A stretch of DNA of 40,112 nt from a virus. Made by a program: the position numbers and the translations under genes. The stretch lies in the IMG/VR virus record IMGVR_UViG_3300045286_000056, positions 1-40,112 of that record. One strand, given 5' to 3'. The notes beneath the pieces are model-generated. The model did no database searches and was not told the origin of the DNA. It saw nothing but the letters and a program-made list of their open reading frames with translations. This document shows positions 4,525 to 40,045 of the stretch, piece by piece. Numbering within the stretch: position 1 is the first letter of the stretch; every line of letters begins with the position of its first letter.

Positions 4525-5943
4525 GTGACCGCGCAGACCGCCGCAACGCTGAAAGGCTATTTCAACTCCGGCGACATTCCCACCGAGGGCAACTTCGCCG
4601 ACTTGGTTGATTCCTTGCCGACGGATACCAACGTACAGGCCTACGGCGCGGTGGGAGATGGATCGCACGATGACACCGCGGCGATCCAGGCGGCCATCGA
4701 CGCGTGTGCAGCGGGCGGCGTGGTCTACATCCCCATCGGGCTGTACAAGATCACGGCGGCATTATCCTGCACGACCAACCTGACGCTGCGCGGCGCGGGC
4801 GCGTCGGTGATCTACGGCGCGGTGGCGGTCGATTATGCAACCTATCCCGCGGCCGCGCCGTGGGTGACGGGTAGCGTCCTGCTGCAATCCACTCCCGCGA
4901 CCAATGGAATCAACATCACCGGCACGGGTGTCAATGTCTCCATCGAGAATATCGCCATCCGGTTCGCGGATGCCATCGCCTTCAACAATACTGGGCATGG
5001 CGTCTATGCTGTTCCCACGGCGACCAGCGGCAGCGGGCACAATAACGGGACTCTATCGGCGACCTGGCGCAATGTCATCGTCTTCGGGCATGACGGCAAT
5101 CATTATGCGTTCTACAACGTCAATTCGGTCTATCTTCTGGCCGAGCATCTGCAAGGCTTCGGCGGGGGCGGATGGTATCAGGAGTGCGACTCCTATGCTA
5201 CCAACTACGGCAACACGGTCATCAACGACACTTATTTTCTCCTGATGGCGGGCGGAACGGCGGACGGCTTCCACATTAAGAGCCGCACGACCACGTACCC
5301 CGGCGTTCTGAACATGCTGACGTTCATCCGCCCGCAATGCAACGTGGCGCTGGCGTCCGTGACCCTGTCTGCCGTGTTCACATTCTCACCTGTCACCGCG
5401 GCGCAATATCGCTGGAAGGATGAAGGCGATCCGACCGCGGTGTACGTCATTGCGCCCGACCTGGAATGTCCGGTCGGCATCCCCTGCCCTGTCTCTTTTG
5501 GTGCCAAGACCTACATCAGCCCCGAGGGCAGTTTCCTGAGTGAGACTAGCGGGGTGCGTGTCGCATTCCGCAGGAAGAAGCCTTATGATGGCCTGCCCAC
5601 GCTCTCATTCGGCGGCGGCGCGGGAACGGTCGGGACGCCGACTGGGTCTGTGCTGCAAGTCTATTCGCTGGCACCCAATGACGAGCGCGGCAAAGTGCGC
5701 TTCATTCCCAGCGCGGGCCCGATGGCGGCCAACGGCGACCGGGTCGTGCGGGTGACGCTCGAATCGTGGAACGGGATCGGCGCGGTTTTCATCCAGCCGA
5801 CGCCCTACGAGCCGAACGAGTTTGCGTCGGTGGGCGCGCAGTTTTATCCCTACAACGTCACAACCAACAGCTTCGAAGTGTGGGCCAATACGCAACTGAC
5901 TGAAGGCGTGAAATATGCCTTTATGTACCTGGTGTTGGAGTAG
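4525..5943 (+). CDS. Pectate-lyase-like beta-helix tailspike or fibre protein
   Basis: 472 residues, GTG start behind GAGAGGA. Residues 35-70 read AYGAVGDGSHDDTAAIQAAIDAC, the hallmark opening of the Pectate_lyase_3 / tailspike right-handed beta-helix family, followed by repeated short beta-rungs to about residue 320 and a different C-terminal beta domain. Such proteins bind or cut host surface polysaccharide. The N-terminal 30 residues (TLKGYFNSGDIPTEGNFADLV) are a short motif often found at the head of phage fibre proteins. Whether it is an active enzyme cannot be told. Confidence 0.75.
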   Translation: MTAQTAATLKGYFNSGDIPTEGNFADLVDSLPTDTNVQAYGAVGDGSHDDTAAIQAAIDACAAGGVVYIPIGLYKITAALSCTTNLTLRGAGASVIYGAVAVDYATYPAAAPWVTGSVLLQSTPATNGINITGTGVNVSIENIAIRFADAIAFNNTGHGVYAVPTATSGSGHNNGTLSATWRNVIVFGHDGNHYAFYNVNSVYLLAEHLQGFGGGGWYQECDSYATNYGNTVINDTYFLLMAGGTADGFHIKSRTTTYPGVLNMLTFIRPQCNVALASVTLSAVFTFSPVTAAQYRWKDEGDPTAVYVIAPDLECPVGIPCPVSFGAKTYISPEGSFLSETSGVRVAFRRKKPYDGLPTLSFGGGAGTVGTPTGSVLQVYSLAPNDERGKVRFIPSAGPMAANGDRVVRVTLESWNGIGAVFIQPTPYEPNEFASVGAQFYPYNVTTNSFEVWANTQLTEGVKYAFMYLVLE

Positions 5944-5945
5944 AT

Positions 5946-6113
5946 ATGCCAGTGGCGAATGATGCGGTGTTCGTGATCGGATACGGGCGCGTCGGCACCT
6001 CCGTCGTATGGGGGCCGGGCATCCATATCTACCGGACGTTTTCCTTCGGCGCCCTGCCGCTGTTCATCGAGGTCAATGCGGAGCTGAAGAAGGCGCTGGG
6101 AGGTCTGCTGTGA
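5946..6113 (+). CDS. Small protein of unknown function, 55 aa
   Basis: 55 residues, with the ATG 2 bp after the previous stop and the stop TGA sharing bases with the GTG of the next gene (GTGA overlap). Gly/Val-rich start, then a short amphipathic C-terminal helix (ELKKALGGLL). No family recognised. The tight coupling and intact frame in a dense operon support a real gene. It probably belongs to the head-tail joining set. Confidence 0.5.
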   Translation: MPVANDAVFVIGYGRVGTSVVWGPGIHIYRTFSFGALPLFIEVNAELKKALGGLL

Positions 6114-6730
6114 CCATTTCGAACGGATACATTACGCTGGTGCAGATCAAGGCAGACGGCGCGCTGGGGATCTCCGACTCGACCAACGATACGGAACTGG
6201 AACAGGTCATCGAATCGGTGAGCCGGGAGATCGACAATTTCTGCAATCAATATTTTTACAAGTCGGCCTCGCCTGAGGTGCGCTATTTCACCCCAACCTA
6301 CGAGGATCAATGCTATGTCTCGCCGCTGGTGAGCGTTTCGAGCCTGTCGACCGACACCAACCTGGACCGAACCTATGCCGATACGTGGACCACGGATGAT
6401 TACGACCTGTATCCCTACAATGCCGCCTCCGGCACGGAGGCCGAGCCTTATTGGAGAATCGACCGGGTGCGCAATAGCGAACTGTCCTTCGTGAAGGGTG
6501 AGCCAAAATACGTCAAAGTGACGGGCGTCTTCGGATGGGCTGCGGTGCCGCAGGCCGTGCAGCAGGCTTGCCTGCTGTGGTCGATGCGCACCTGGATGCG
6601 GCATAAGACCGTCCTGGGCGTGTCGGCCGTGACGGCACTGGGGCAGATGATCGTCAAGGTGCCGCCGCCCGATCCGGATGTGCAGCAGCTTCTCAGCAAC
6701 TACAAGCTGGTCATCACGGGGGTGATATGA
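6110..6730 (+). CDS. Head-tail connector (HK97 gp6-like adaptor)
   Basis: 206 residues, GTG start overlapping the upstream stop by four bases. The segment VIESVSREIDNFCNQYFYKS followed by beta strands (VRYFTP, YVSPLVSVSSLSTD) and a C-terminal helix bundle rich in Trp and Met is the pattern of gp6-like adaptor proteins that form the ring under the portal. Its place before the tail terminator and tail tube genes fits. A longer frame to 6008 would cover the preceding small gene and is not chosen. Confidence 0.7.
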   Translation: MTISNGYITLVQIKADGALGISDSTNDTELEQVIESVSREIDNFCNQYFYKSASPEVRYFTPTYEDQCYVSPLVSVSSLSTDTNLDRTYADTWTTDDYDLYPYNAASGTEAEPYWRIDRVRNSELSFVKGEPKYVKVTGVFGWAAVPQAVQQACLLWSMRTWMRHKTVLGVSAVTALGQMIVKVPPPDPDVQQLLSNYKLVITGVI

Positions 6731-8810: not shown

Positions 8811-10462
8811 AAATCGAAGTCATCGCCAAGGACCTGGCGTCCCAGGCCCTGAATACCGTCGTTAACAGCCTCAAAGGACTGGGAACAACGGCGGGCCTGA
8901 TGGCGGCCGGATTCGTTACGGCAGGCGTGGCGGTGGGCGGCGCGCTTCTGAAAATGGGGCAGGAAGCGGTCAGCTATGCGGATGACGTTCGCAAGGTGCA
9001 GCAGGTCACGGGTGATACGGCGGAGGAAAGCAGCCGCCTGATTCAAGTCCTGGATGATCTGAAGGTGGGTACTGAGAGCGTGGACGCGGTCACGCGCGCC
9101 CTGGCACAGAAGGGTATGGCACTTTCGATTGATACGCTGGCGAAGTTGTCCGATCAATACCTAGCACTCAGCACCCAGCAGGAACGAAATAAATTCATTG
9201 TTGATAATCTCGGGCGCTCCGGCCTTCAATACGTGGAGGTCTTGCAACAGGGCTCGACGCGCCTGCACGAGATGAACGGGGAAGTCGAGAAAGGCTTGAT
9301 CCTGTCTCAAAAGCAGGTCGACGCGGCGCGCGAAAACCAGAAGCAGGTCGACGCTCTCAACGACCGATTCCAGGCGCTCAAGGTCACGATTGGCAACCAG
9401 GTTGTGCCGGTCGAGAACGATCTGTTGCAGGCCACGCTGGACAGCAACGCCGCGCAGGAGCAGGCCATCGCCCTGTACGGCCATGCGCTAACGGCCTTCG
9501 ACCCGCGCCTCATCAAATTGCGTGAGGATATCGTCGCCACGCGGGAAGCCAAGGATGCTGTCCTTCTGCACTCGGAGGCGATGCGGGAAAACACAACCAC
9601 CCTGGCCGGTAACGCCGATGCCCTCGCGCTGGATAAGGAAGCACTAAAGGCCGTGACCGAAGCCAACAACACGGCGCTGAGCACGATCACGAACGTGCAG
9701 AGCGAGAACGATAGTTATGCCAAGTCGCTGGATGATCTGAACAAAAAGCACGCCGAGGAGCAGGCCGAAATAGACAAGCTGCTGGCTCAGGGCTGGTCGC
9801 CTCTGAGCGACAAGGTTCAGGAAGTCCAGAAGCGATACGACGACACCGGCAAGGCCATCGACGGTCTGGCGGCACAGCACGACCAGGCCATGAAGCGCAT
9901 CGTGTACGACCTGTTCGTCGCCAAGCTCCAGGCGGACGGCTTTACCGATTCAGAATTCCAGATGGCGCTCCAGGCGGGCGAGGCGCTGGGGGTGATCGAC
10001 CCGGCCACCGCGCAGATGGCGCTGGGTTTCAATACCGTGGCACAGGCCGCTGCCGCTGGAAAGATCAAGGTCAGCGAACTAGGCGACGCTGCCAAGGCCG
10101 TCGTGGGTGAATACAATATCGATCTATACATCAATGCATACGGTGATACATCCCTGATCGACGCCCTGAAGACGCAGAACAAGGCGACCGGGGGGCCGGG
10201 CTCTAATAAAGGTGCGAAGAAACCCACAGCCTTTGCATCGGGAGGCTCGTTTATCGTTCCCAGCGCCTACGGCAATGAAGGCTTCAATTTGGGCGGCATG
10301 GCGACGGCCAGCGCGGGCGAGCGGGTGACGGTTTCTCCCAGCGGCGCGGGCGGCTCGATCATCTTCAACTTCCCCAATTACATCGGCACGCCGCAGGACC
10401 TGAAGAACGCCATGCAGCAGGCGGTGCGGCAGATGCAGCTCGACGGGCGGGTGCCTTCCTAA
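8792..10462 (+). CDS. Tail tape measure protein
   Basis: 556 residues. It opens with ANQVEIEVIAKDLASQALNTVV, typical of tape measure N-termini, then a hydrophobic Gly/Ala stretch (residues about 32-55), then long coiled-coil helices with heptads rich in Asp, Gln, Lys and Ala to about residue 350. The C-terminal part has an Ala/Gly-rich region and a final globular end with IIFNFPNYIGTPQDLKNAMQQAVRQMQL. At about 0.15 nm per residue it predicts a tail near 83 nm, short for a siphovirus. It overlaps the chaperone extension upstream and shares one base with the next gene. Confidence 0.85.
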   Translation: MAANQVEIEVIAKDLASQALNTVVNSLKGLGTTAGLMAAGFVTAGVAVGGALLKMGQEAVSYADDVRKVQQVTGDTAEESSRLIQVLDDLKVGTESVDAVTRALAQKGMALSIDTLAKLSDQYLALSTQQERNKFIVDNLGRSGLQYVEVLQQGSTRLHEMNGEVEKGLILSQKQVDAARENQKQVDALNDRFQALKVTIGNQVVPVENDLLQATLDSNAAQEQAIALYGHALTAFDPRLIKLREDIVATREAKDAVLLHSEAMRENTTTLAGNADALALDKEALKAVTEANNTALSTITNVQSENDSYAKSLDDLNKKHAEEQAEIDKLLAQGWSPLSDKVQEVQKRYDDTGKAIDGLAAQHDQAMKRIVYDLFVAKLQADGFTDSEFQMALQAGEALGVIDPATAQMALGFNTVAQAAAAGKIKVSELGDAAKAVVGEYNIDLYINAYGDTSLIDALKTQNKATGGPGSNKGAKKPTAFASGGSFIVPSAYGNEGFNLGGMATASAGERVTVSPSGAGGSIIFNFPNYIGTPQDLKNAMQQAVRQMQLDGRVPS

Positions 10463-12003
10463 TGGCTTCCATCGCGGCCGACAACCGTTACAGCCGGGTC
10501 AAGTGGGGCGCGACCAAATGGGGCGCCTCAGCCGCCGCGGCGGTGCTGGACTGGGAATTGTCTGTGGATTGGAACGGCGACGGCCTCTTCGACAACAACG
10601 AGGCGAACCGCATGGTGGGGCTGTCGGGCTTCCGCGGGCGCACCAACATGCTGCAGCCCGTGGGCAGCGGCTTCGAGCCGGTCCAGACCGGGCGCTATAC
10701 CGTCACGCTGGATAATTACGACGGGCGCTTCGACCCACGTAATACCGCCAGCCCGCTGTACCCGAATGTCAGCTACGGCAAGGACGTGCGCATCCGGGTG
10801 CGGGATATGTCGACCGGCACTACCTACCCGCTGTTCTACGGCATCATCACCGATATCGTTTCCACCGGCGGCATCGAGAACCCGCAGGCGCAGCTCATGC
10901 TGGAGGACAGCTGGACGTACCTGCGCAACAACAAGGCGCGTGTGGCGATCCAGACGGGCATCACCACCGATACGGCCGTCGCCGCCGTGCTAAATGCCGT
11001 GTCGTGGCCGGTGCGCTGGGGCCGCAACCTGGACGTGAACACCGATACCCTGGCGTACTACTGGGCGACCGGCAACAATACCGCCGGGGAGGAGATCCAG
11101 AACCTGACCGATTCGGGCGCGGGCGCGTTCTTCATCGCCGCCAACGGCAACGCCACCTACCGCATCCGCTCCGATATCCCGGCCGCCACGCTGGACCTCG
11201 GACAGAGCGATGTGTACCGGGAGATCAACCCGGCGCAGCCGTGGGCGAACTTCCGCAACGTCATCAAGCTGACGGTCAACCCGCGCGTGCAGGCTGTTTC
11301 GGGCGTGATCTGGAAATTGCAGGGCAACGCCCCGAGCATCAACGCCGGGCAGCACCTGAAGTTCTTCGCCTCGTACACCTACAACGGCACGCCCGCCCCG
11401 GCCAACAATGTGTTACAGCCGGTGCCCACCACCGACTGGACCACGAACACGCTGGCGGGCGGGGGTGGCACGGATAAGACCGCCGTCTGCACGCTGGTCA
11501 TCACCGACTTCGGCGACACCGCGCTGGTGGACGTGTTCAACGGCGACGCCGGGCTGGTGTACCTGACCTCGGCGCAGATCAAGGGGCAGGCCATCTACAT
11601 CCAGAACAGCGCCGACGTGACCTACCCGGCCGACGCCACGACCGTACAAAATCCGCGCGAGTTCAAGCAGAACCTGGCCTGGCAGCAGGACATCAATGTG
11701 GCCGTGACCATCGCGGCCGTGCTCGGGCCGTTCTTCGGCACCACCTTCCCGACCATCGTGTGCCGCACGAGCGGGCAGCCGGCGAAGCAATTCGCGCTGG
11801 ATCTGTGGAGCACGGTCTCCGCGACCTTCCCCAAGTTCGGCATCAGCGGCAACTCCATGCGCGTGACGGGCATCCAGCACGACAGCCGGATCGCGAATTG
11901 CCAGGACATCCTGACCACGCTGTACCTGGAGCCCTACCCGACCGTGACCGGCGCGGCCATCTGGGATACGAGCGTTTACGACACGGGAGTGTATGGATGG
12001 TAG
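10462..12003 (+). CDS. Distal tail / tail tip structural protein
   Basis: 513 residues, starting in the last base of the tape measure gene. Largely beta structure. The N-terminal segment KWGATKWG...LDWELSVDWNGDGLFDNNEANRM contains a DxNxDG calcium-loop-like motif and is followed by a domain with TVTLDNYDGRFDP, a pattern common in distal tail proteins that follow the tape measure. It probably forms the tail tip hub. No enzymatic motif seen. Confidence 0.6.
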   Translation: MASIAADNRYSRVKWGATKWGASAAAAVLDWELSVDWNGDGLFDNNEANRMVGLSGFRGRTNMLQPVGSGFEPVQTGRYTVTLDNYDGRFDPRNTASPLYPNVSYGKDVRIRVRDMSTGTTYPLFYGIITDIVSTGGIENPQAQLMLEDSWTYLRNNKARVAIQTGITTDTAVAAVLNAVSWPVRWGRNLDVNTDTLAYYWATGNNTAGEEIQNLTDSGAGAFFIAANGNATYRIRSDIPAATLDLGQSDVYREINPAQPWANFRNVIKLTVNPRVQAVSGVIWKLQGNAPSINAGQHLKFFASYTYNGTPAPANNVLQPVPTTDWTTNTLAGGGGTDKTAVCTLVITDFGDTALVDVFNGDAGLVYLTSAQIKGQAIYIQNSADVTYPADATTVQNPREFKQNLAWQQDINVAVTIAAVLGPFFGTTFPTIVCRTSGQPAKQFALDLWSTVSATFPKFGISGNSMRVTGIQHDSRIANCQDILTTLYLEPYPTVTGAAIWDTSVYDTGVYGW

Positions 12004-13220
12004 ACCTGCTCTGTGCCAACGCGGTGGAATGGGCGTGCTCGTATCGGGGCGAGCCGTTCCATGCGTTGCTGTGCGACCCGCCATATGAATTGAAGTTCAT
12101 GGGGCGCAATTGGGATAACTCGGGCGTAGCCTTTGACCCCGAGACGTGGGCGGCGTTCTTGTCCGTGATGTACCCCGGCGCGTTCGGGATGGCGTTTGCT
12201 TCTTCCCGCGGCTGGCATCGTCTTGCCTGTGCCATTGAAGACGCGGGGTTTGTCATCCATCCGTCTATCTTCGGTTGGGCGTATGGAAGTGGATTTCCCA
12301 AGGCAACCCGCGTCAATCACGGCGACCCACACACTGAGACATTTGCAGGACATCGCTACGGTTTGCAAGCCCTGAAGCCCGCGCTGGAACCCATCATCGT
12401 ATTCCAGAAGCCTTACCAGGGCAGGCCGATAGAGAACATCACCCGGACGGGCGCGGGGGTGCTGAACGTGGACGGGGGGAGGATTGGGACAGACGACGGT
12501 ACACGCAACAGGCCGCCCGCCAAGCCAACGTCAACCACATTCGCTCAAGACGAATGGACATCGAACCCCGAAAACAGAAAGCCCTTTGACGCTAACGGTT
12601 CCGGTCGCTGGCCTGCGAATTTCTACTGTGACGCCGAAGCCGCGCGGCGGCTGGATGAGCAGAGCGGGGAGAGTGTGAGCAAGCGTAGCCAACGCGGAGC
12701 CGTTGAGATATTCAAGAAACCGAACGGCTGGATTGGCGAAAGCACAGAGCGGGGCATAGATGACTCCGGCGGTGCCTCCCGCTTCTTCTTCCGCGTGGAA
12801 GAGACACTCGACGCCGCCGACCCGGTGCGGTATCAGGCGAAGGCAAGCAGGGCAGAGAGGGACGCGGGGCTGGATGGGTTTGAGAAAGTCCCGTCCTACA
12901 TGGTGGAGAACGGTAGCAAGACGGCGGGGGCGGCGAATGGTGTGAGATACGACAGAACGACAATGCTCCACAATCCTCATCCAACTATTAAGCCCCTCGC
13001 GCTTGCCAAGTATCTAGCCACTCTCTTACTGCCTCCCGACGAATATGCACCGCGGCGCATCTTTATCCCCTTCGCTGGTGTAGCTTCCGAATGTATAGGC
13101 GCAATGCAAGCAGGCTGGGATGAGGTCGTAGGTGTGGAATTGACGGAAGAATATATCCCCATCGCAAAGGCAAGAGTGGAACACTGGCAAAAGCGAGTGC
13201 AGACAGTGATGAACCTATGA
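11997..13220 (+). CDS. DNA methyltransferase (N6-adenine / N4-cytosine class)
   Basis: 407 residues, overlapping the previous gene by 7 bp; GGGAG at 11985-11989 supports the ATG at 11997. Motif IV comes first (CDPPYELKFMGRNWD, DPPY at 27-30) and the SAM-binding motif I is near the end (FAGVASECIGAMQAG, from about 359, then EVVGVELTEEY), the order of the beta group. Between them is a long region with target-recognition character. The DPPY form favours adenine-N6. An orphan enzyme without a restriction partner, placed among tail genes. Likely self-modification of phage DNA against host restriction. Confidence 0.83.
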   Translation: MVDLLCANAVEWACSYRGEPFHALLCDPPYELKFMGRNWDNSGVAFDPETWAAFLSVMYPGAFGMAFASSRGWHRLACAIEDAGFVIHPSIFGWAYGSGFPKATRVNHGDPHTETFAGHRYGLQALKPALEPIIVFQKPYQGRPIENITRTGAGVLNVDGGRIGTDDGTRNRPPAKPTSTTFAQDEWTSNPENRKPFDANGSGRWPANFYCDAEAARRLDEQSGESVSKRSQRGAVEIFKKPNGWIGESTERGIDDSGGASRFFFRVEETLDAADPVRYQAKASRAERDAGLDGFEKVPSYMVENGSKTAGAANGVRYDRTTMLHNPHPTIKPLALAKYLATLLLPPDEYAPRRIFIPFAGVASECIGAMQAGWDEVVGVELTEEYIPIAKARVEHWQKRVQTVMNL

Positions 13221-18147: not shown

Positions 18148-18386
18148 TATTTGGTACGGGGGAGGAACGGCGCCTTATAGCGGGCGACCTGATACAGGAT
18201 CGTAAACTCGTGTTCCCCCACTTCCGTGACCGCGCCGAATCCGATGCAGTTCCCGCCCTGCTGGAGATTATCGATGACCGCCACGTGCTGCCCGAGGCGG
18301 ATTTTGTCGGCGGAGTGCGGATAGAACACCGGGTAGGCGTGGCCTTCGACGAGCACGCGGCCGGGGCGGAGGTAGATGGTGGTCAA
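18147..18386 (-). CDS. Small beta-rich protein after the Mom-like gene
   Basis: 79 residues on the minus strand. A TTG start is chosen because it overlaps the Mom-like gene's stop (TTGA) and lies about 8 nt behind AAGGA; longer in-frame starts run back through the Mom coding sequence. The sequence (TIYLRPGRVLVEGHAYPVFYPHSADKIRLGQHVAVIDNL...) looks like a small SH3-like or beta-barrel domain. Last gene of the leftward operon. Could assist the Mom-like enzyme; no family recognised. Confidence 0.55.
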   Translation of the reverse strand: MTTIYLRPGRVLVEGHAYPVFYPHSADKIRLGQHVAVIDNLQQGGNCIGFGAVTEVGEHEFTILYQVARYKAPFLPRTK

Positions 18387-19174
18387 AAGAGCGTTCCTTG
18401 CACTGCGCTGGCTTTCTCGCGTACGTTGTTGTACGAATAGTTCCCCGAGAATATGGGTTGCGTTGTCGTTTCCCAATAGCCTTTTTCGTCCTGTACTTTC
18501 CATTCGAGGTCGGATTCTTTTGGATAATCTGACCGCCTCCATTGAACCGTAGAGCCTTTCAGAAGTTGCTTTTCATCGCGCAAAAAATAAGCATATCTAA
18601 ACTGCTTGCCTTGATAGTGCAGAATGTGTTGTGCGTGAAGCTGTGCCGGACTTGGGCGCGTACGTTCGGGTTCAACGCCTGAGCGTCGTATGATTTCCTT
18701 AGATGTGCGTGGATGTACCTTTTCTCCATCCGCGGTCACATACGTATCCGTCCAGATGAAACCGCCGTAATAGAAATTTGCAGCCTGATAAACGTATCCC
18801 GGCTTCCCCATAATGCCGTCCGCCCATGTGTAAATAACCCTTTTTTTTGGGTATAGCCTTTTTACTTCTGCCATCACTTTTGACATGAAGAAACTTTCGG
18901 AGTTGCGCGGTAGGTCATCTACAAGACACATTTTCCCGATTTCCCAATAGTCGGGCGGCATCAATGTTGGGAACAATTTCTTGATAGTATGCAACGGACG
19001 GACACCCCATCCGAGCGTGAGAACCGCAAGTAGTTCGCCGCGTATCACGCCGCCGAAGCACACAGCGGTTAGTTTCGGCATTACTCTTGAGTAGTGGTGA
19101 TTGCTTACAAGCTGATACGCCACATCGACAGGAACCGGCTTTATTTCTATATCGTGGAAATCGGGAGGAGTCAT
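18383..19174 (-). CDS. Mom-like DNA modification enzyme (GNAT fold)
   Basis: 263 residues, ATGA overlap with the upstream gene. The family pattern of phage Mu Mom-type proteins is visible in order: NHHYSRVMPK (about 28-37), an AVLTLGWG strand, WEIGKMCLVDDLPRNSESFFMSKVMAEVKR (about 96-126), VIYTWADGIMGKPGYVYQAANFYYGG (about 134-160), then TYVTADGEKVHPR. Mu Mom adds an acetamide-type group to adenine in phage DNA and so blocks many restriction enzymes; the same role is inferred here. It sits in an early leftward operon rather than a late one as in Mu. The C-terminal 80 residues (FRYAYFLRD...) also fit family members. Substrate and exact chemistry are not known. Confidence 0.78.
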   Translation of the reverse strand: MTPPDFHDIEIKPVPVDVAYQLVSNHHYSRVMPKLTAVCFGGVIRGELLAVLTLGWGVRPLHTIKKLFPTLMPPDYWEIGKMCLVDDLPRNSESFFMSKVMAEVKRLYPKKRVIYTWADGIMGKPGYVYQAANFYYGGFIWTDTYVTADGEKVHPRTSKEIIRRSGVEPERTRPSPAQLHAQHILHYQGKQFRYAYFLRDEKQLLKGSTVQWRRSDYPKESDLEWKVQDEKGYWETTTQPIFSGNYSYNNVREKASAVQGTLF

Positions 19175-24619: not shown

Positions 24620-25003
24620 ATGCACCAACATTATCCGAGCGCCTGGAATTTCTACATCAATAGTCCGGACGTGAAGAAGGTCCTGTGGTTGCAATACGAG
24701 GGCGTGGGCAGCTGCCCGAACTGCGGCGGCAGCGGAGTGGTTAGCGTATTCCTGGCGACCGCCGGCCCATTCGATTCGCCGGGCTCATCCAATTATGTAT
24801 CCAAGTGGTTCGATGGCAAGTGGTGGTGCGCGCCATCCTTCGATTCGAAGAAGCCGGACGAATCCCTGCACTTCGGCACGTTTAGCGCGGACTGCCCGGA
24901 CTGCCGCGGCGAGCACGCGCCCGGCCACGGCGTTTATGTGCCCATGCCGGATGAAGTGCGCCTCGCGCTGAACGCGGTGCTGGATCGAAAGCGGGTGCGA
25001 TGA
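24620..25003 (+). CDS. Zinc-ribbon protein, 127 aa
   Basis: 127 residues. CPNCGGSG (about 32-39) and CPDCRGE (about 93-99) form two CXXCXG knuckles, a likely zinc ribbon. Rich in Trp and aromatic residues between them. 4-bp overlap with the methyltransferase gene that follows, so the two may be made together. Function unknown. Confidence 0.55.
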   Translation: MHQHYPSAWNFYINSPDVKKVLWLQYEGVGSCPNCGGSGVVSVFLATAGPFDSPGSSNYVSKWFDGKWWCAPSFDSKKPDESLHFGTFSADCPDCRGEHAPGHGVYVPMPDEVRLALNAVLDRKRVR

Positions 25004-25929
25004 AGCTCCTGCAAGGCGACGCCCTGGAAGTCCTGCGAACGCTTGAGGCTGGTACGGTGCAAACCTGCGTCACATCGCCGCCTTACTACGGCTTGCGCGA
25101 TTACGGCGTAGCGGGGCAGATTGGCCTTGAAGAAACTCCCGAAGCCTATGTCTCGAAGCTCGTTGCCGTGTTCGCGGAAGTGCGGCGGGTGCTGAAGGAT
25201 GACGGGACGCTGTGGGTGGTGATTGGAGATAGCTACGCCGGCAGTCACGGCAACGGCAACTATCCGCAGGCCAACACGGGCATGAATTCAGAAGCGGCCG
25301 GCTTTGTGCGGTACGAAAGCCCAACGAAAGACATTGCCGGCTTCAAACCCAAAGACCTGATCGGCATTCCTTGGATGCTGGCCTTTGCCCTGCGCGCCGA
25401 TGGCTGGTATCTGCGGCAGGACATCATCTGGGCGAAGCCGAATCCGATGCCCGAAAGCGTGACCGACCGCTGCACGAAAAGCCATGAATACATCTTCCTG
25501 CTGAGTAAGTCGGCGCGGTACTACATGGATATGGATGCAATAGCAGAGGCGTCCATTTGGGCAGATGACCCACGCGCTGAAAGCGGGCGCATCCATTACG
25601 CGGGAAAGCGGGAAGGCGCGGCGAGAACGGGTAACGAGAACTTCGTGAAGATAACCGAAACCCGCAATCGTCGATCTGTCTGGACCGTGACCACGAAGCC
25701 GTACAAGGAAGCTCATTTCGCCACCTACCCGCCGGACCTCATCGAGCCGTGCATCCTGGCGGGCAGCAAGGTCGGTGATGTGGTTCTCGACCCCTTCAAC
25801 GGCTCAGGCACAACCGGCGCGGTGGCGCTGCATCACAACCGCGACTACATCGGGATCGAGTTGAGCCCGTCTTATCTGCGCCTGACAGAGCGCCGGCTGA
25901 GCCGGGTGCAGCGGAGGTTGTTCGCATGA
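25000..25929 (+). CDS. DNA methyltransferase, probably N4-cytosine type
   Basis: 309 residues. Motif IV TSPPYYGLRDYG (SPPY at 26-29) comes first and the SAM motif DPFNGSGTTG (from 264) last, the beta-class order; the SPPY form is usual for N4-cytosine enzymes. KLLQGDALEVLRTL at the N-terminus and NRDYIGIELSPSY at the C-terminus also fit. No restriction enzyme is adjacent, so it is an orphan. With the Mom-like enzyme and the second methyltransferase it makes three DNA modification genes. Confidence 0.85.
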   Translation: MKLLQGDALEVLRTLEAGTVQTCVTSPPYYGLRDYGVAGQIGLEETPEAYVSKLVAVFAEVRRVLKDDGTLWVVIGDSYAGSHGNGNYPQANTGMNSEAAGFVRYESPTKDIAGFKPKDLIGIPWMLAFALRADGWYLRQDIIWAKPNPMPESVTDRCTKSHEYIFLLSKSARYYMDMDAIAEASIWADDPRAESGRIHYAGKREGAARTGNENFVKITETRNRRSVWTVTTKPYKEAHFATYPPDLIEPCILAGSKVGDVVLDPFNGSGTTGAVALHHNRDYIGIELSPSYLRLTERRLSRVQRRLFA

Positions 25930-33191: not shown

Positions 33192-33683
33192 ATGACAACG
33201 ATGGATCTGCTGCAGGAACAATTCAACAAGGAACGCATGAACGCCCAGGTATACGAGAGCTTTGCTAACTGCCTGGAGAGCTACAACTGGCCCGGCTTCG
33301 CGGCGTGGATGAGGAAGGCGAGCGCGGACGAACTGACGCACGCCGCGCGCTTCGCCGGGTATCTCATCGACCGCAACCAGAAGCCGATCTCGACCGCGCT
33401 GGAGGCGCCGCCCGAGATGAGCGGCGACAACCCCCTCCCCTTCTTCCAGGCTGCGCTGCAACTGGAGCAGGAGAACACCAAGAGCATCCTTGCTATCGAG
33501 GACCAATCGGATGCGGAGGATGACGAGCAAACCGACGTGTTCCTGTACTCGTGGGCGATCGCCGAGCAGACGAGATCGGAGCGCGAACTGGTGGATGCGC
33601 TGCTGGAATTGAACCGCGTAGGCCCGGACGGACTGATCATCTTAGACCGTGAGTATGGCGAGAGAGCAGCCGGTGGCGGGTGA
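33192..33683 (+). CDS. Ferritin
   Basis: 163 residues, the usual length of bacterial non-haem ferritin. By eye it aligns with E. coli FtnA along its whole length: NKERMNAQVYES (helix A), DELTHAARFAGYLIDRNQKPI (helix B), FFQAALQLEQENTKSI (helix C), WAIAEQTRSERELVDALLELN (helix D) and the end DREYG. Ferroxidase positions Glu47, His50 and Glu92 are conserved; the residue matching FtnA Glu17 is Gln19, which may weaken the site. It would store iron as a 24-subunit shell. The gene follows the head genes and leads the sugar cassette, whose radical SAM and RfbH-like enzymes need iron-sulfur clusters. Ribosome site GGAG. Confidence 0.86.
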   Translation: MTTMDLLQEQFNKERMNAQVYESFANCLESYNWPGFAAWMRKASADELTHAARFAGYLIDRNQKPISTALEAPPEMSGDNPLPFFQAALQLEQENTKSILAIEDQSDAEDDEQTDVFLYSWAIAEQTRSERELVDALLELNRVGPDGLIILDREYGERAAGGG

Positions 33684-33880
33684 TAGATATTCTGTATGCT
33701 GTTTACACTGATTTAAGACCACCTTGGCGTACTATGCGACTTAGTAATGTTCCCGTTATTGGAGATGTAATAATTCACGATTATGAAAAATATATTGTTG
33801 TTTCTCGTTTTTTCGATGATGGGGGACTTGTTATTGTCATAAAATTAGATCAGGAATATAAGAAAGCAGGCGGAGGGTGA
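33680..33880 (+). CDS. AT-rich moron-like small protein
   Basis: 66 residues from a GTG start overlapping the ferritin end and in turn overlapping the SDR start. GC content is about 36% by hand count, far below the flanking genes, with codons such as ATA and TTA that are rare elsewhere. The protein is beta-rich (VPVIGDVIIHDYEKYIVVSRFFDDGGLVIVIK), possibly a small barrel. The base composition indicates recent transfer. Function unknown. Confidence 0.6.
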   Translation: MIDILYAVYTDLRPPWRTMRLSNVPVIGDVIIHDYEKYIVVSRFFDDGGLVIVIKLDQEYKKAGGG

Positions 33881-34542
33881 TCGCCCTCGTAACCGGCGGA
33901 ACGCGGGGGATTGGGTTTGCCATCGACGCTGCCCTCTCTGCGGCAGGCTACGCGGTCTCGGGCATCGGGCGGAAGACGGGCGACCTATCCAAGCGGCATG
34001 AGCGCCACGATATCATCCAGGATGTCATTGAGCTATATGGCGGCCTCGATGTCCTGGTGAACTGCGCGGGCGCGCAATCCTTCCACAAGGCAACTGAATA
34101 TCCTGCAACCGAATGGGATTACGAGCTGGCGCTGATGCTGACCGCGCCCTTCGAACTGTCCCAGCAGGCGGCGAAGTGGATGCTCGCGCACGACGGCGGG
34201 CATATCGTCAACATCCTGAGCACATCGGCCTTCCAGGGCGCGCGCAACGTGGCGGGCTACGTGGCCGCCAAGCACGGGTTGCTGGGCGTCACGCGTGCCT
34301 GTGCGATCGAATGGGCGCCGAAGGTGCATGTCAACGCGGTCGCGCCGGGCCTGACCGACACGGATATGACGCGCGCCTATATCACACCCGAGCGCAGGGC
34401 GCTGCTGGAAAGTATCACGCCCGGCGGCCGCTTCTGCACACCGGAGGAGATCGCCGCGGCGGTGGTGTTCTTGGTGGGTTCGACGGCGATCTACGGGCAG
34501 GTCATCACGGTGGACAACGGCTGGATGGTGAAGAATGGCTGA
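33877..34542 (+). CDS. Short-chain dehydrogenase/reductase
   Basis: 221 residues, GTG start overlapping the moron gene. Nucleotide-binding TGGTRGIG (6-13), NCAG (about 63-66), catalytic Ser in ILSTSAFQ and YVAAK (Tyr and Lys) are all present. It is a classical SDR, likely reducing a keto group of a sugar or a small intermediate in the pathway. The sequence resembles FabG-type enzymes rather than extended SDRs. 8-bp overlap with the radical SAM gene. Confidence 0.85.
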   Translation: MIALVTGGTRGIGFAIDAALSAAGYAVSGIGRKTGDLSKRHERHDIIQDVIELYGGLDVLVNCAGAQSFHKATEYPATEWDYELALMLTAPFELSQQAAKWMLAHDGGHIVNILSTSAFQGARNVAGYVAAKHGLLGVTRACAIEWAPKVHVNAVAPGLTDTDMTRAYITPERRALLESITPGGRFCTPEEIAAAVVFLVGSTAIYGQVITVDNGWMVKNG

Positions 34543-35539
34543 CATCATCCAGGCACGAGACCTGCGCGGCGCGCGCACGGAGCGGCTGATCGATAGTGTG
34601 CCCTTGCCCGCGCCGTGGACGATGTTCATCGAGCCGACCAACGCCTGCAACTACCGCTGCCAGTACTGCCCCACCGGGCACCCTGATTTGCTGACACAGG
34701 TCGGGCGGCGCGTCACGCTCATGCGCTGGGAATTGTTCACGAAGGTCGTGGACGATATGAAGCAGTTCCCGCGCAAGTGCAAGATGGTGAACCTGTACAA
34801 GGACGGCGAATCTCTCATCCATCCGCAGTTCATCGAGATGGTGCAGTACCTGAAGAGGGCGGATGTGACCGAGCGCATCTGGCTCAAGACCAACGGGCAG
34901 CTATTGAAGCCCGAGTTGAACGAGCAACTGATATCGTGCGGCCTGGATATGATCGGCGTGAGTGTGCAGGCGCCGAGCGCCCAGGGTTTCTATGAAATCG
35001 CAGGAGTGAGGATCGACTATGAACACTATCGTGATGGCGTTCTGGATCTGTACCGTCGAAGCCGGGGCACGCCTACTCGCATTAGTGCCAAGATCGCGGA
35101 TGTCGGGCAGAGCGAGGGAGAGAAGCGGCGGTTCATCAACGACTTCGAGGACCGATGTGATGCGATTGCCGTTGAAGGACTTCATGGATGGGCATCTAGT
35201 GACGCTTACGACTTCAGGCTCGGAACCGACCAGTCCTTCGACGGCTCCCCGCGCACGGCGAAAATCGCCTGCCCGCTCGTCCTCTATATGCTCACCGTCA
35301 ACGCAAACGGCGATATCTCCGTATGTAACGACGACTGGCAGCATACCCACCAAATCGGAAATGCGGCACACATGGGACTGATGGACATCTGGCGCGGCGA
35401 ACGGCTCAAGCAGTTCCGCATGACGCACCTGCTGGGGCACCGCGCAGAGCTCGCGGCCTGCGGGACCTGTGATTACGTCCAGGCGCTGCCGGACAATATC
35501 GACGCCGACCGCGCATCCTACATCGAGAGGCTGCGATGA
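34535..35539 (+). CDS. Radical SAM/SPASM enzyme
   Basis: 334 residues. CNYRCQYC (Cys38, Cys42, Cys45) is the [4Fe-4S] motif of radical SAM proteins. The C-terminal region has KIACPLVLYMLTVNANGDISVCNDDW and a later CGTC, a SPASM-type auxiliary cluster region. It makes a radical for a difficult reaction on a sugar, peptide or other substrate. In bacteria such enzymes occur within O-antigen clusters. 4-bp overlap with the methyltransferase. Substrate unknown. Confidence 0.85.
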   Translation: MADIIQARDLRGARTERLIDSVPLPAPWTMFIEPTNACNYRCQYCPTGHPDLLTQVGRRVTLMRWELFTKVVDDMKQFPRKCKMVNLYKDGESLIHPQFIEMVQYLKRADVTERIWLKTNGQLLKPELNEQLISCGLDMIGVSVQAPSAQGFYEIAGVRIDYEHYRDGVLDLYRRSRGTPTRISAKIADVGQSEGEKRRFINDFEDRCDAIAVEGLHGWASSDAYDFRLGTDQSFDGSPRTAKIACPLVLYMLTVNANGDISVCNDDWQHTHQIGNAAHMGLMDIWRGERLKQFRMTHLLGHRAELAACGTCDYVQALPDNIDADRASYIERLR

Positions 35540-36543
35540 GACCCTGCCCCGTCTGCGAATCCTACATGCGCATCGAGTCCTTCCGGTCGCAATTCCACGT
35601 GCCGGACGGCTGGCCCCTGCCCGACGAGATCATCTGGTATGACTGCCTGGAGTGCGGGATGATCTTCGGCGATGGCGACTTCGACCAGGAGATGCTGGAC
35701 CGCTATTATCGGCAGTATTATGGCTACGGCATCAACGGGCCGGACAACATCGAGAGATTGAAGCGGGACGCGGCGCGCATCGAGGGTTGGGTGAGCTCCA
35801 AGCAGGCGCGCATCCTGGACTTCGGCGGCGCGGGCGACGACGGGCGCAGCCTGATCGTCGACCATTTTCAGCGAGTCGGCTATACAGACGCCCATTGCAC
35901 CGGGCCGAATGAACCTCTGCCGCAGGACTGTGACTTGATCTATGCCTCGCATGTGCTGGAGCACATCTACGACCTGCCGCACGTCATGACGCGGCTGGGT
36001 CAGGCGCTGAAGCCGGAAGGCGTGCTGGTCGTGGACATCCCGGAGGCGGCGGGCATCCTGCTCCACTGGCAGAAGGCCATCCTGGACTACAACACCAAGC
36101 ACATCAACCACTTCACGATCCGCACCATGCTGGACCTGCTGCACCGCTATGGGTTCGAGCTGGTGGACCATCGCGACTACACTCTGGAGGGTGCGCCGTG
36201 TGTGCAATTCGTCTGCAAGCGCCTGGACATTGCGGAAGAGGCGCGGCGGCATATCGAAGCGCGGGCGGACGAGACGCTGGCGAAGCTGGCGCCGTACAGC
36301 GGGCCGGTCAACCTGTGGGGGCTGAACGACCGCGTTTGGAGCATCATCGACCGCACGCGCCTGGACGTGCTGAACTACATTGACAATGACCCGGCCTATC
36401 GCGGTCAGACGTACCGGGGCAAGCCGGTGCTGGAGCGGCCGGACAACGATGCGCCGATCCTGATTATCTGCCAGGGACAGGGCGGGCGGCTGGTTGCGAA
36501 CATCAAGAAATGGGGCATCCAGAACAAGGTGGTGGAGATATGA
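35536..36543 (+). CDS. Sugar C-methyltransferase-like protein
   Basis: 335 residues, ATGA overlap. An N-terminal zinc-binding segment (CPVCESYM, later YDCLECGMIF), a central SAM domain with ILDFGGAGDDG and LIYASHVLEHI, and a C-terminal Rossmann-like part (VNLWGLNDRVWSIIDRT ... GKPVLE). This three-part plan matches NDP-hexose C-methyltransferases that put a methyl group on a ketosugar. It fits a pathway for a branched deoxysugar. Confidence 0.75.
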   Translation: MRPCPVCESYMRIESFRSQFHVPDGWPLPDEIIWYDCLECGMIFGDGDFDQEMLDRYYRQYYGYGINGPDNIERLKRDAARIEGWVSSKQARILDFGGAGDDGRSLIVDHFQRVGYTDAHCTGPNEPLPQDCDLIYASHVLEHIYDLPHVMTRLGQALKPEGVLVVDIPEAAGILLHWQKAILDYNTKHINHFTIRTMLDLLHRYGFELVDHRDYTLEGAPCVQFVCKRLDIAEEARRHIEARADETLAKLAPYSGPVNLWGLNDRVWSIIDRTRLDVLNYIDNDPAYRGQTYRGKPVLERPDNDAPILIICQGQGGRLVANIKKWGIQNKVVEI

Positions 36544-37049
36544 GAATCGCAGATGCGATCTGGAAGCGCGTCGCGCAGGAATGCGATACCGTCTTCTATC
36601 TGCCCGGAGGAGGGTCGTCTCACCTGGTGGATGCGCTCGGGCAGAGCGGGCTGCGCGCAGTCGCCTGCCTGCATGAGCAGGGAGCGGGCTACGCGGCGGT
36701 CGGGTACGCGCAGATCCACGGCTTCGGCGTGTGCTGCGTGACGAGCGGGCCTGGCGCGACCAATGCCATGACGCCCTGCCTAGCGGCGTGGGTCGACTCG
36801 GTTCCGGTGCTGTTCATCTCCGGGCAGGTGCGCACGGATTGGTTGGCACTGCCGGGGATGCGCAGCAGAGGGACGCAGGAAGCGCCGACGATCGAGTTAA
36901 TTATGTCAATCACTAAGTTTGCATATCAGCCGTTTGGAGGCGGTGACAGCTTACCAGGCTTGGAAGATGCAATCAGGATTTGTAAAATAGCGCGCTTCGG
37001 CCCGGTGTGGCTGGACGTGCCGCAGGATGTGCAGGCCGCCAATGTATAA
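36540..37049 (+). CDS. TPP enzyme, N-terminal (PYR) half
   Basis: 169 residues, ATGA overlap. Contains the pyrimidine-binding domain of acetolactate-synthase-like enzymes, with catalytic Glu46 in CLHEQGAGYAAVGYAQ and VTSGPGATNA. It ends soon after GPVWLDVPQDVQ, where the domain normally continues through a linker. The next gene supplies the rest in a +1 frame, overlapping by 8 bp. Either a natural two-subunit enzyme or a recent frameshift split. Confidence 0.8.
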   Translation: MRIADAIWKRVAQECDTVFYLPGGGSSHLVDALGQSGLRAVACLHEQGAGYAAVGYAQIHGFGVCCVTSGPGATNAMTPCLAAWVDSVPVLFISGQVRTDWLALPGMRSRGTQEAPTIELIMSITKFAYQPFGGGDSLPGLEDAIRICKIARFGPVWLDVPQDVQAANV

Positions 37050-38145
37050 GCCGTGTGTACTCATCGGCAACGGCATCCGCGGCAACACTGCGCTAATCGA
37101 CCATCTGTGCAGCCTGAATATTCCGGTGCTCACGACCTGGATGGGTGCGGACTTGATCGCCGAGGACAACCCAACATTCTGTGGGCGGCCGGGGATATTG
37201 GGGCAGCGCGCCGCCAACATCATCCAGCAGAAGGCGACGCATTTCTTCGCCTTCGGAGCGCGGCTGGACGGCGAGCAGGTCTTTTACAACTACGACAAGT
37301 TTGCGCCTCACGCCGAGAAATATATCTATGATATGGACCCGATGGAGTTCAAGAAGTTCCCGCCCGATTGGACAGCGCTGGGCGACAAGAACGGCAGCTA
37401 TACACCGGATGCGGCCGACCCTGTCTGGCTCGCCTGGTGCCGCGCCTTGTACTGCCGCTTCCGGGGAGAGCTGGACGAGGTGAGCGCAGGCAAGTATGTA
37501 GATCCGTTCACGCTGGTGCGCCTATTATCGGAATACAGTCTCCCCACTGACGTGTTCGCCATTGGCTCATCGGGCAACGCGCCGACCGCCTTCTTCCAAT
37601 CCTTCAAGGTGAAGCAGGGGCAGCGCATCCACAACTGCTGCACCATCGGCGCGATGGGCGCGGACATCCCGATGGCGCTCGGCTCGGCACTGGCCTCGGG
37701 GCGGCGCACCATCTGCGTGACGGGCGACGGCGGCTTCCAGCTCAACACGCAGGAGCTGGAAACGATCCGGCGACTACACTTGCCCATTATCTTCTTCGTG
37801 TTGAACAATAACGGCTATGCCTCGATCCGCAACAATCAGAAGCTGCGTTTCGGGCGCGTGACGGGCGCAGACCCCAAGTCAGGGCTGACCCTGCCGAGAT
37901 TGGAGGATATCGCAGACGGCTATCGCATCGTCTATGATAGGTTGTGGGGCAGGGACCTGCCGCGCTTCGAGCGCTGCTTCGACTTCGCGCCCAAGATCGT
38001 GGAGGTGATGTGCGACCCGGATTGGGTGCAGTATCCGCGGGCGATGGCGCACATGCAGCCGGATGGCTCATTTCTCAATGATGACATGGCCGACATGACG
38101 CCCAAGATTGACGACCTGCAAGAACTGATGGAGTGGGACGGGTGA
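37042..38145 (+). CDS. TPP enzyme, central and C-terminal (PP) halves
   Basis: 367 residues from the ATG at 37042, which shares 8 bp with the previous gene's end. Begins YKPCVLIGNGIRGN, the start of the central domain, and carries the diphosphate-magnesium motif GDGGFQLNTQELETIRRLHLPIIFFVLNNNGY (Gly228-Asp229-Gly230 and the Asn run). Together with the PYR half it would make a complete enzyme of about 536 residues that acts on 2-keto acids, for example adding a two-carbon unit to a ketosugar (YerE-like). The usual long linker between the halves is missing. Confidence 0.8.
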   Translation: MYKPCVLIGNGIRGNTALIDHLCSLNIPVLTTWMGADLIAEDNPTFCGRPGILGQRAANIIQQKATHFFAFGARLDGEQVFYNYDKFAPHAEKYIYDMDPMEFKKFPPDWTALGDKNGSYTPDAADPVWLAWCRALYCRFRGELDEVSAGKYVDPFTLVRLLSEYSLPTDVFAIGSSGNAPTAFFQSFKVKQGQRIHNCCTIGAMGADIPMALGSALASGRRTICVTGDGGFQLNTQELETIRRLHLPIIFFVLNNNGYASIRNNQKLRFGRVTGADPKSGLTLPRLEDIADGYRIVYDRLWGRDLPRFERCFDFAPKIVEVMCDPDWVQYPRAMAHMQPDGSFLNDDMADMTPKIDDLQELMEWDG

Positions 38146-39266
38146 AGGTCCCTATCTCCGGGCAGGTCACGGGGCGCGAAGAGATCCGCAACGTTTTTCG
38201 CGTCGCGCTTTCCCAGCATTACGGCGGCGGGGAGTGGACAGACCTGTTCGAGCGCTTATTTGCAAAGTACATGGGCGCGCGCAATGCGGTGTTGTGCAAC
38301 AGCGGGTCATCGGCGAACCTGCTGGCGATGTCGGCCATCGAGCTGCCGCCCGGCTCAAAGGTGCTCACCAGCGCGGTCGGCTTCCCCACGACCGTCAATG
38401 CCATCATCCAGCGCGGCTTTACGCCCGTGTTCGTGGACGCCGACCCGCGCACGCTGAACCCGGTGGATGTGGAAATCGACCCCGGCGAGATCCGGGCGAT
38501 CATCCTGGCGCACACGCTGGGCAACCCCATCGACCTGACGCACTACGCGCAGTATCGCATCCCGATCATCGAGGATTGTTGCGATGCGGTCGGTAGTACC
38601 ATTCACGGGCGCTCGGTCGGGCGCGTCGGCATCATGAGCACCTATTCGTTTTATCCGGCGCACCACATGACGATGGGCGAGGGCGGGGCGGTCCTGACCG
38701 ACTCCCCCAAGCTCAAGCGCATCCTGGAATGTATGCGCGATTGGGGCCGGGACTGCTGGTGCGAGCCCGGCGAAGACAATACCTGTGGAGTGAGGTTCGA
38801 GCTGGACTATGATCACAAATACACCTACAGCCGTATCGGATACAATCTCAAGGCATCTGATTTTCAGGCTGCCGTGGGGGTCGCTCAGTTGGATCGGCTT
38901 TCAAGTTTCATTTCCAAACGGAAAGAGAATCACGCATATTATAAATATGCGCTGGAAGGGCTACCGATTGAAGTTGTGGAGGCAACCCCCGGAAGCGATC
39001 CGTCCTGGTTTGGTTTTGCATTTCTCACGCCCGAACGGAACCGGCTGGCTCGTTTTCTGGACACCAAAGGCATAGGCAATCGCCCGATCATGGGCGGCAA
39101 CCTGACGCGCCAGCCTGCCTATCGTGCCCTGGAGCATCACGTCATTAGCAGCCTGGACGGGGCGAACCGCATCCATGAGCAAGGCCTATGGATCGGCGTG
39201 TTTCCGGGCATCACGCGCGAGATGCAGGATTACGTCATCGAGGCATTTCATGAGTTCTTTGCGTAA
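38142..39266 (+). CDS. RfbH-type PLP/iron-sulfur 3-dehydrase
   Basis: 374 residues, GTG start. The sequence STYSFYPAHHMTMGEGG carries His174 where DegT aminotransferases have the PLP lysine, the mark of CDP-4-keto-6-deoxyglucose 3-dehydrase (E1/RfbH) and ColD. CMRDWGRDCWCEPGEDNTCG and YDHKYTYSRIGYNLKASDFQAAVGVAQL are strongly RfbH-like, and the Cys cluster suggests a [2Fe-2S] site as in E1. It removes the C3 hydroxyl of a 4-keto-6-deoxysugar to give a 3,6-dideoxysugar. The normal partner reductase is not found, so a host reductase would be needed. Confidence 0.85.
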   Translation: MKVPISGQVTGREEIRNVFRVALSQHYGGGEWTDLFERLFAKYMGARNAVLCNSGSSANLLAMSAIELPPGSKVLTSAVGFPTTVNAIIQRGFTPVFVDADPRTLNPVDVEIDPGEIRAIILAHTLGNPIDLTHYAQYRIPIIEDCCDAVGSTIHGRSVGRVGIMSTYSFYPAHHMTMGEGGAVLTDSPKLKRILECMRDWGRDCWCEPGEDNTCGVRFELDYDHKYTYSRIGYNLKASDFQAAVGVAQLDRLSSFISKRKENHAYYKYALEGLPIEVVEATPGSDPSWFGFAFLTPERNRLARFLDTKGIGNRPIMGGNLTRQPAYRALEHHVISSLDGANRIHEQGLWIGVFPGITREMQDYVIEAFHEFFA

Positions 39267-39930
39267 GGTGTTAGTCACGGGCGGCACAGGCTTCGTGGGC
39301 CGCTGGATGCAGCGTACCCAGCCCGCGGGCGTCGAAGGGCACTACATCGGCCGCGAATTGTACAATGGCGGCGTGTGGCCCATCCCCCACTTCTATGTGC
39401 ACCTCGCGCCCATCGCACCAACCGCGGTGCTGGACGTTGCGCGGCGCTACGGCGGGCGGGTGCTGTATGCCTCCTCGGGCGCGGTGTACGAGCGCACAAC
39501 CAGGTATGCAGACGACAAGCGCCTCTGGGAGCAGGAATGCCTGGCCAGCGAGTGCAACGTGGTCATCGCGAGATTGTTCACCTTCTTCGGCGACGGCATC
39601 CTGAAGGACGACAGCAAAGCCATCACGCAGTTCGTGAAGGCGGCCAAAGCCTGCGCGCCGCTCCGTATCTGGGGCGACGGCGCGACCGTCCGCAGCTACA
39701 TGAGCGGCGCAGAGATGGGGCGGCAGCTATGGGCGATCCTGTTCCGAGGGCAGAACGGCGAGGCCTACGACGTAGGCTCTGACGAGCCGGTCACGATGCT
39801 GGAGTTGGCGCAGATGGTCAACCGGGCCTTCGGGAACAGGTCGCAAATCTGGATCGAGAACCGCCCGGAGGAATGCACGTATTACCTGCCGAAGGACACA
39901 GCCAAAACCAGGGCATTGTTATCGGCTTGA
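39250..39930 (+). CDS. NAD-dependent sugar epimerase/dehydratase
   Basis: 226 residues, overlapping the previous gene by 17 bp. TGGTGFVG (10-17) binds NAD; YASSGAVYE with a later YADDK provides the catalytic residues; ARLFTFFGDG, RSYMSGAEMG and YDVGSDEPVTMLELAQMV complete the extended SDR pattern. Shorter than usual (about 300), mainly by loss of residues between the nucleotide site and the catalytic strand, so it may be trimmed. Last enzyme of the sugar cassette. Confidence 0.8.
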   Translation: MSSLRKVLVTGGTGFVGRWMQRTQPAGVEGHYIGRELYNGGVWPIPHFYVHLAPIAPTAVLDVARRYGGRVLYASSGAVYERTTRYADDKRLWEQECLASECNVVIARLFTFFGDGILKDDSKAITQFVKAAKACAPLRIWGDGATVRSYMSGAEMGRQLWAILFRGQNGEAYDVGSDEPVTMLELAQMVNRAFGNRSQIWIENRPEECTYYLPKDTAKTRALLSA

Positions 39931-39944: not shown

Positions 39945-39995
39945 ACTGGCAACTGAATAGGGCGTGCCGTTGAGCCGCTAGACCGTTAGCCGTTG

Positions 39996-40045
39996 AGAGC
40001 CGGTCATCCTGCGTGAGAAATCGCGCCGGGTGACCGGCTCTTTTT
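39996..40045 (+). terminator. Intrinsic terminator (same element as 11-60)
   Basis: Stem 39996-40006 with 40031-40041 and T tract 40041-40045. It ends the sugar operon and lies between the promoter at 39916 and the capsid gene. Confidence 0.85.

Follow-up and report, generated by a model that had tools for sequence, protein, structure and literature searches.

Why would a tailed phage carry seven genes of nucleotide-sugar chemistry immediately before its major head protein gene? The question is raised by the IMG/VR virus record IMGVR_UViG_3300045286_000056, which was analysed over its full length of 40,112 nucleotides (the window). The record is circularly closed, with an exact 127-bp repeat at both ends, and its genes include those for terminase, portal, head, and tail proteins, for an endolysin, and for Mom-like DNA modification. 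The portal gene is followed, on the closed circle, by MuF-like and ferritin-like genes, by the sugar cassette (33877–39930), and then directly by the head protein gene. The enzymes that a first-pass annotation had named at this location do stand together: all seven open reading frames (ORFs) are open and on the plus strand, with neighbours overlapping by a few bases. Our preferred reading, to which we give a probability of roughly 55%, is that the phage completes a cytidine diphosphate (CDP) sugar of the host into a branched sugar for its own glycosyltransferase, with the virion a likelier destination than the host lipopolysaccharide (LPS).

Enzymes of the sugar cassette

The dehydrase RfbH scores above the NCBIfam equivalog cutoff of NF011936 (435.4 bits against 423), and in the PDB it matches E1 best (3bcx, E=2e-108), while ColD reaches only 4e-46. 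His177 (ORF numbering), within the motif YPAHHMT, aligns with the His of 3bcx and the Lys of 3bb8. Counted from the GTG start at 38142, which overlaps the preceding stop, this catalytic residue is His174, and the earlier description of an RfbH-like dehydrase whose pyridoxal phosphate lysine is replaced by His174 and whose cysteine cluster is kept holds in both respects. E1 follows the cysteine spacing rule C-X57-C-X1-C-X7-C, which Cys150, Cys208, Cys210, and Cys218 of the phage protein fit exactly; all four are invariant in the RfbH alignment. Four cysteines hold a [2Fe-2S] cluster in E1 and SpnQ, ColD has no cluster, and the roles of the catalytic His and the cluster in E1-type dehydrases have been described (PMC8987622). 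The phage RfbH falls in a viral-only clade of the tree.

A thiamine diphosphate (ThDP; also thiamine pyrophosphate) enzyme is present as the first-pass annotation had proposed, but it is encoded by two overlapping genes, not one. The first carries the PYR domain and the second the middle (M) and PP domains, and at their junction, ATGTATAA, the start of the second half overlaps the stop of the first. The catalytic Glu of the PYR half and the GDG...N motif of the PP half are both kept and are invariant in the alignments. When the halves are joined, the two best PDB matches across the PYR, M, and PP domains are the YerE-like lyases 8rph (3e-57, 198 bits) and 5ahk (4e-55, 191 bits), which we take to be JanthE and PpYerE, respectively. 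The E. coli acetolactate synthase gives 7e-42, and acetolactate synthases reach at most 147 bits; by this ranking, the YerE/JanthE enzymes are nearer relatives of the phage enzyme than the acetolactate synthases are. The known lyases are single chains, whereas the phage enzyme is split into about 169 and 367 amino acids (aa), and JanthE has CDG where the phage enzyme has GDG. PpYerE and JanthE are both YerE-like enzymes of solved structure, and YerE-like enzymes are the sole decarboxylase subclass that accepts isolated ketones (PMC12247030). To judge from its sequence, the two-subunit protein very probably functions as an enzyme.

The methyltransferase has profile matches to KijD1 and TcaB9. 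Nucleoside diphosphate (NDP)-sugar C-methyltransferases have the Pfam domains PF08421 and PF08484; for the phage and bacterial homologues, Pfam gives just general families such as PF13489. C4, C7, C37, and C40 (Zn-type CxxC...CxxC) are invariant, and the methyltransferase core and C-terminal domain are present. The top 18 Foldseek matches of its AlphaFold model (predicted local distance difference test, pLDDT, 86) are all sugar C-3 methyltransferases (MtmC, KijD1, TcaB9), with a different domain arrangement, since TM-scores are only ~0.5. The radical S-adenosylmethionine (SAM)/SPASM enzyme, whose sole PDB matches are weak ones to BtrN (E=2.5e-6, residues 235–317), is a candidate sugar oxidoreductase or epimerase. 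The predicted extended short-chain dehydrogenase/reductase (SDR) epimerase exists as a PF01370 gene, but it starts at 39250 rather than 39124 and is just 226 aa long. Its profile matches are uridine diphosphate-glucuronate decarboxylases and 4,6-dehydratases, and both it and the classical SDR are generic by sequence.

Table 1. Features of the sugar cassette and its surroundings in the window.
Feature	Position	Strand	Basis or context
Classical SDR, 221 aa, candidate ketoreductase	33877–34542	+	PF00106/PF13561; conserved, and first in the type A cassette
Radical SAM/SPASM enzyme, 334 aa	34535–35539	+	PF04055, PF13186
NDP-sugar C-methyltransferase-like protein, 335 aa, N-terminal CxxC/CxxC	35536–36543	+	PF13489, profile matches, model fold
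ThDP enzyme, PYR half, 169 aa	36540–37049	+	PF02776; invariant HEQGAG
ThDP enzyme, middle + PP half, 367 aa	37042–38145	+	PF00205, PF02775; invariant TGDGGF
RfbH, E1-type CDP-4-keto-6-deoxyglucose 3-dehydrase	38142–39266	+	NF011936, 3bcx, Cys motif and His
Short extended-SDR epimerase/reductase, 226 aa, YADDK motif	39250–39930	+	PF01370
Hairpin and T run, intrinsic-terminator-like	39995–40042	+	Between cassette and capsid gene; folding z = -4.6
Major head protein with protease region	78–2234	+	phrog_10 E=2e-34, phrog_80; next gene after cassette
Small protein, 141 aa, candidate head decoration protein	2288–2713	+	After capsid gene in most relatives
GT-A-type glycosyltransferase, 276 aa	2732–3562	+	Two genes after head protein; fold and conserved motifs
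Ferritin-like protein	33192–33683	+	PF00210 E=7e-23; directly upstream of cassette, outside assigned pathway

From the gene identities, the motifs, the split, the conserved gene order, and the glycosyltransferase-type fold, we infer a substrate, branching step, product, order of steps, and acceptor as follows. A host-supplied NDP-4-keto-6-deoxyhexose, most likely CDP-4-keto-6-deoxyglucose, would lose its 3-hydroxyl to RfbH with the help of host electron carriers. The two-subunit YerE-like lyase would then use the 4-keto group as acceptor for a decarboxylated 2-oxo acid, and the C-methyltransferase, the radical SAM enzyme, the classical SDR, and the epimerase would tailor the ring and the branch. 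The finished sugar would be used by the GT-A-type glycosyltransferase whose gene lies beyond that of the capsid protein, on an acceptor that is more likely to be the virion (the capsid or the small protein 2288–2713) than host LPS. The branched 3,6-dideoxy sugar chemistry is, on the enzymes present, probable.

The viral head module and the possible acceptor of the sugar

Searches with RfbH and the ThDP enzyme turned up the cassette in many viral contigs, in the same head-module place wherever the sequence reaches; in phages with enough sequence, it lies between portal/MuF and capsid. The cassette is not a chance assembly, since its genes are found again at the equivalent position of many other viral contigs, and the first-pass view of a phage-borne exotic-sugar pathway as a rarity was too strong, given its conservation in a group of uncultivated phages. 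Type A phages have the order SDR-radical SAM-methyltransferase-PYR-M+PP-RfbH-epimerase before the same head protein. Type B phages have, for example, RfbH-epimerase-methyltransferase-radical SAM-(NeuB)-PYR-M+PP between portal and head genes, and some add an RfbG/RfbF-kind dehydratase or nucleotidyltransferase. Relatives of RfbH and of the ThDP half in the known-phage collection were all <60% identical, several of them in small, host-DNA-looking records, and a literature search found no paper that combines phage, RfbH, and thiamine pyrophosphate. The whole cassette and head module occur twice, in different versions, in the 80-kb viral record IMGVR_UViG_3300025030_000076 (L164, L168), which may be a joining of two phage genomes or an artefact of assembly.

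The homologues of the glycosyltransferase-type protein conserve HND/HHD and GGGEDRRF in their alignment, and one of them matches a PHROG glycosyltransferase. Foldseek matched its model to STIV A197 (E=5.5e-7), LH3, COLGALT1, and mimivirus R699; Pfam and PDB profile searches with this protein gave no match, so that the fold and the one PHROG match alone pointed to a glycosyltransferase. In type B phages, GT4-like and GT34/nucleotide-sugar-transferase-like genes follow a different head protein of their own, and every cassette-bearing contig that reaches far enough has a glycosyltransferase-type gene after the capsid gene, with both capsid types. Head-protein relatives L208, L211, and L222 have neither the full cassette nor this glycosyltransferase. 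We read the capsid-side glycosyltransferase as a module to which a dedicated sugar pathway is sometimes added. The 2288–2713 product had no family match in phage-family and domain scans and would, by inference, be a decoration protein. In L178 (14309–16330), a GT4-like glycosyltransferase has an intein-splicing match (PF14890) under the curated cutoff.

Several observations weigh against a phage-made sugar for the phage's own glycosyltransferase. The glycosyltransferase model is of low confidence (pLDDT 59; predicted TM-score, pTM, 0.67). The gene also occurs without the cassette (L215, L217), or with the methyltransferase alone (L209, L218), which makes the link one-sided, and the association was rejected as proof because some cassette-negative contigs have the gene too. 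Between the cassette and the capsid gene lies the terminator-like hairpin (Table 1), which was picked up by a pattern scan and has a second copy within the terminal repeat; cassette and capsid gene thus need not be co-expressed, and their timing may differ. No match to the RfbF and RfbG families TIGR02622 and TIGR02623 was found in the phage, and the E3-type reductase domain PF00175 was found in 0 of 17 viral records (the phage and 16 relatives), so that a host supply of both the precursor and the electron carriers for RfbH must be assumed. SpnQ offers a precedent by which host carriers could also serve RfbH (PMC8987622). With these points in view, use of the sugar by the phage glycosyltransferase has an even chance, and the virion as acceptor falls somewhat short of that. 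We know of no phage-made nucleotide sugar in virion glycosylation of the type seen in mycobacteriophage Che8. Phage-encoded glycosyltransferases of Che8 and its relatives are connected with glycans on major capsid proteins (cited in PMC11256854), and those of Maravista lie near the genome end, whereas here the gene is near the capsid gene.

The alternative that survives best keeps the same chemistry and places the sugar in host LPS or capsule during infection, where it would alter the receptor and prevent both superinfection and renewed adsorption to debris. Most of the natural YerE-type sugars described in PMC12247030 sit on bacterial LPS, O-antigen sugar genes are known in other phages (PMC12911398), and a bacterial relative, locus L097, adjoins a glycosyltransferase-type gene. 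However, the ORFs scanned included no recognisable integrase, flippase, or membrane glucosyltransferase, and the head module is an unexpected site for a lysogenic-conversion gene. Deposition in the host envelope is therefore the strongest competitor to the virion, though on balance rather unlikely.

Bacterial relatives and the nature of the proposed branch

The bacterial RfbH proteins closest to that of the phage are at most 51% identical, among the best 80 of the matches listed. A plus-strand YerE-like ThDP ORF, always fused, lies near 34 of these 80 loci; bacterial RfbH homologues are thus not all in amino-sugar clusters, the outcome that the first-pass annotation had named as speaking against its pathway. 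It had also suggested a search for bacterial gene clusters with the same set. In the Anaerolineae locus L097, RfbF-RfbG-RfbH-epimerase-methyltransferase-ThDP-NeuB stand in one row (RfbF and NeuB called by Pfam, RfbG by eye) and the ThDP enzyme is clearly JanthE-like (404 bits versus 254 and 224). RfbH, epimerase, methyltransferase, and ThDP enzyme are shared with the phage cassette, but L097 has a fused ThDP enzyme, its own CDP-glucose genes, and a bacterial genome context, and no SDR or radical SAM match was found in its neighbourhood. A host search in 400 Chloroflexota genomes gave only weak matches to the capsid profile and only fused bacterial enzymes with the ThDP profile; four further bacterial genomes, searched without a positive control, gave no capsid match.

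NeuB-like enzymes condense phosphoenolpyruvate with a sugar. By analogy, those encoded in the cassettes may supply a long 2-oxo acid donor, and ErwE prefers hydroxylated 2-oxo acid donors (PMC12247030). Since NeuB-like synthases are additional members in related phages and bacteria, longer branches of the erwiniose or caryophyllose type fit better; the donor in the phage itself may be simpler, as there is no NeuB in the window. Within phage cassettes, NeuB-like synthases were observed in L173 (8449–9318), L176 (6161–7018), and L014 (~9116–10666).

A simple donor such as pyruvate is also what a literal yersiniose pathway would use, with an acetyl branch placed at C4 and then reduced by the SDR or the epimerase. 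Like the yersiniose A pathway of Yersinia pseudotuberculosis O:VI, the cassette has an E1-type 3-dehydrase and a YerE-like ThDP enzyme, accompanied by two reductase-type SDRs, and the window without a NeuB-like synthase makes pyruvate plausible. In contrast to that pathway, the cassette is phage-borne, its ThDP enzyme is in two genes, and RfbF, RfbG, and E3 were not found in the phage; the C-methyltransferase and radical SAM enzyme are conserved members that would be superfluous for yersiniose, and for the step of the YerF reductase the two SDRs are candidates only. Literal yersiniose is improbable. Of the label "yersiniose-like", the 3,6-dideoxy chemistry with a YerE-like partner stands, while the two additional enzymes and the missing RfbF, RfbG, and E3 do not fit it.

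A shade less probable still, the ThDP enzyme could make a small 2-hydroxy-ketone or aldehyde off the sugar, so that the cassette product would be a methylated, unbranched 3,6-dideoxyhexose. YerE-like enzymes do accept aldehydes, and some tested members had no ketone activity (PMC12247030), but the linkage of ThDP enzyme and RfbH is strongly conserved in phages and bacteria. L205, moreover, combines type A enzymes and a 70% identical RfbH with a distant, fused ThDP enzyme, which indicates a required common step.

Fission of the ThDP enzyme and its meaning

The fission count covers 91 distinct ThDP enzymes, 42 bacterial and 49 viral. All 42 bacterial enzymes are fused, whereas 35 of the 49 viral ones are split (24 as PYR and M+PP, 10 as PYR+M and PP, and 1 in three pieces) and 14 are fused. 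The tree requires at least four changes between split and fused forms, and a single clade of all split forms was rejected on a quick tree (approximately unbiased test, p-AU 6e-43), a value that is indicative only, as the tested group was chosen after the tree was seen. As read from the tree, fission happened in several separate events. The split falls at a domain boundary, the genes of phages that are 50–78% identical overlap there as ATGTATAA or ATGA, and L004 and L010 have a separate endonuclease-like gene between the halves. That the split is mere damage, a frameshifted dead gene, would fit the fused state of all 42 bacterial relatives but is scarcely credible, because the domain-boundary junctions are conserved and endonuclease-like genes stand between halves that both retain their catalytic residues.

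ORFs resembling GIY-YIG homing endonucleases (L004 ~5600–6560; L010 332–1003; L002 3535–4146; by eye) interrupt the cassette, where they separate the ThDP halves from each other or the SDR gene from the radical SAM gene. In L023 (7380–9009) and L024 (13971–15603), which may be the same virus, the ThDP enzyme consists of three overlapping genes for PYR, M, and PP, each with a start. A pair without the middle domain occurs in L013 (9154–10190; PYR 176 aa, PP 169 aa), in which GDG reads GEG, so that activity may be changed or lost. The sulfopyruvate decarboxylase ComDE is a two-gene ThDP enzyme with PYR and PP on separate chains and no middle domain. The phage enzymes resemble it in that separation, but their M domain is on the PP chain or, in L023/L024, on a chain of its own.

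Elsewhere in the genome, the ferritin-like protein has relatives in L002 (91% identical) and L013 (64%), and a phage ferritin in a head module is odd. The same phage carries DNA modification genes (Mom-like gene, 18383–19174, minus strand; two DNA methyltransferases, 11760–13220 and 25000–25929) and a tail-spike-like protein (4525–5943) with a pectate-lyase/rhamnogalacturonase-type domain (PF12708). An Rfam scan gave no match, and promoter-scan matches in the cassette region were not above those in shuffled sequence.

New here are the recurrence of the cassette in viral head modules, the bacterial row of L097, the viral-only splitting of the ThDP enzyme, and the capsid-side glycosyltransferase. 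It is a tentative proposition that certain related tailed phages build a branched 3,6-dideoxy nucleotide sugar themselves and attach it, through a glycosyltransferase of their own, to their own capsid, and that the YerE-like ThDP enzyme of this pathway has been cut repeatedly and independently into two or three separately encoded domains, in viruses only. Sugar genes of phages are mostly regarded as isolated aids to polysaccharide synthesis by the host; the multi-gene branched-sugar cassette is instead a conserved part of the head module, beside glycosyltransferases, in different phages, and phage-made virion glycans thereby become directly testable. Repeated fission also provides natural two- and three-part versions of a carboligase class that is sought for tertiary alcohols, and the split ThDP carboligases are a model for ThDP domain assembly.

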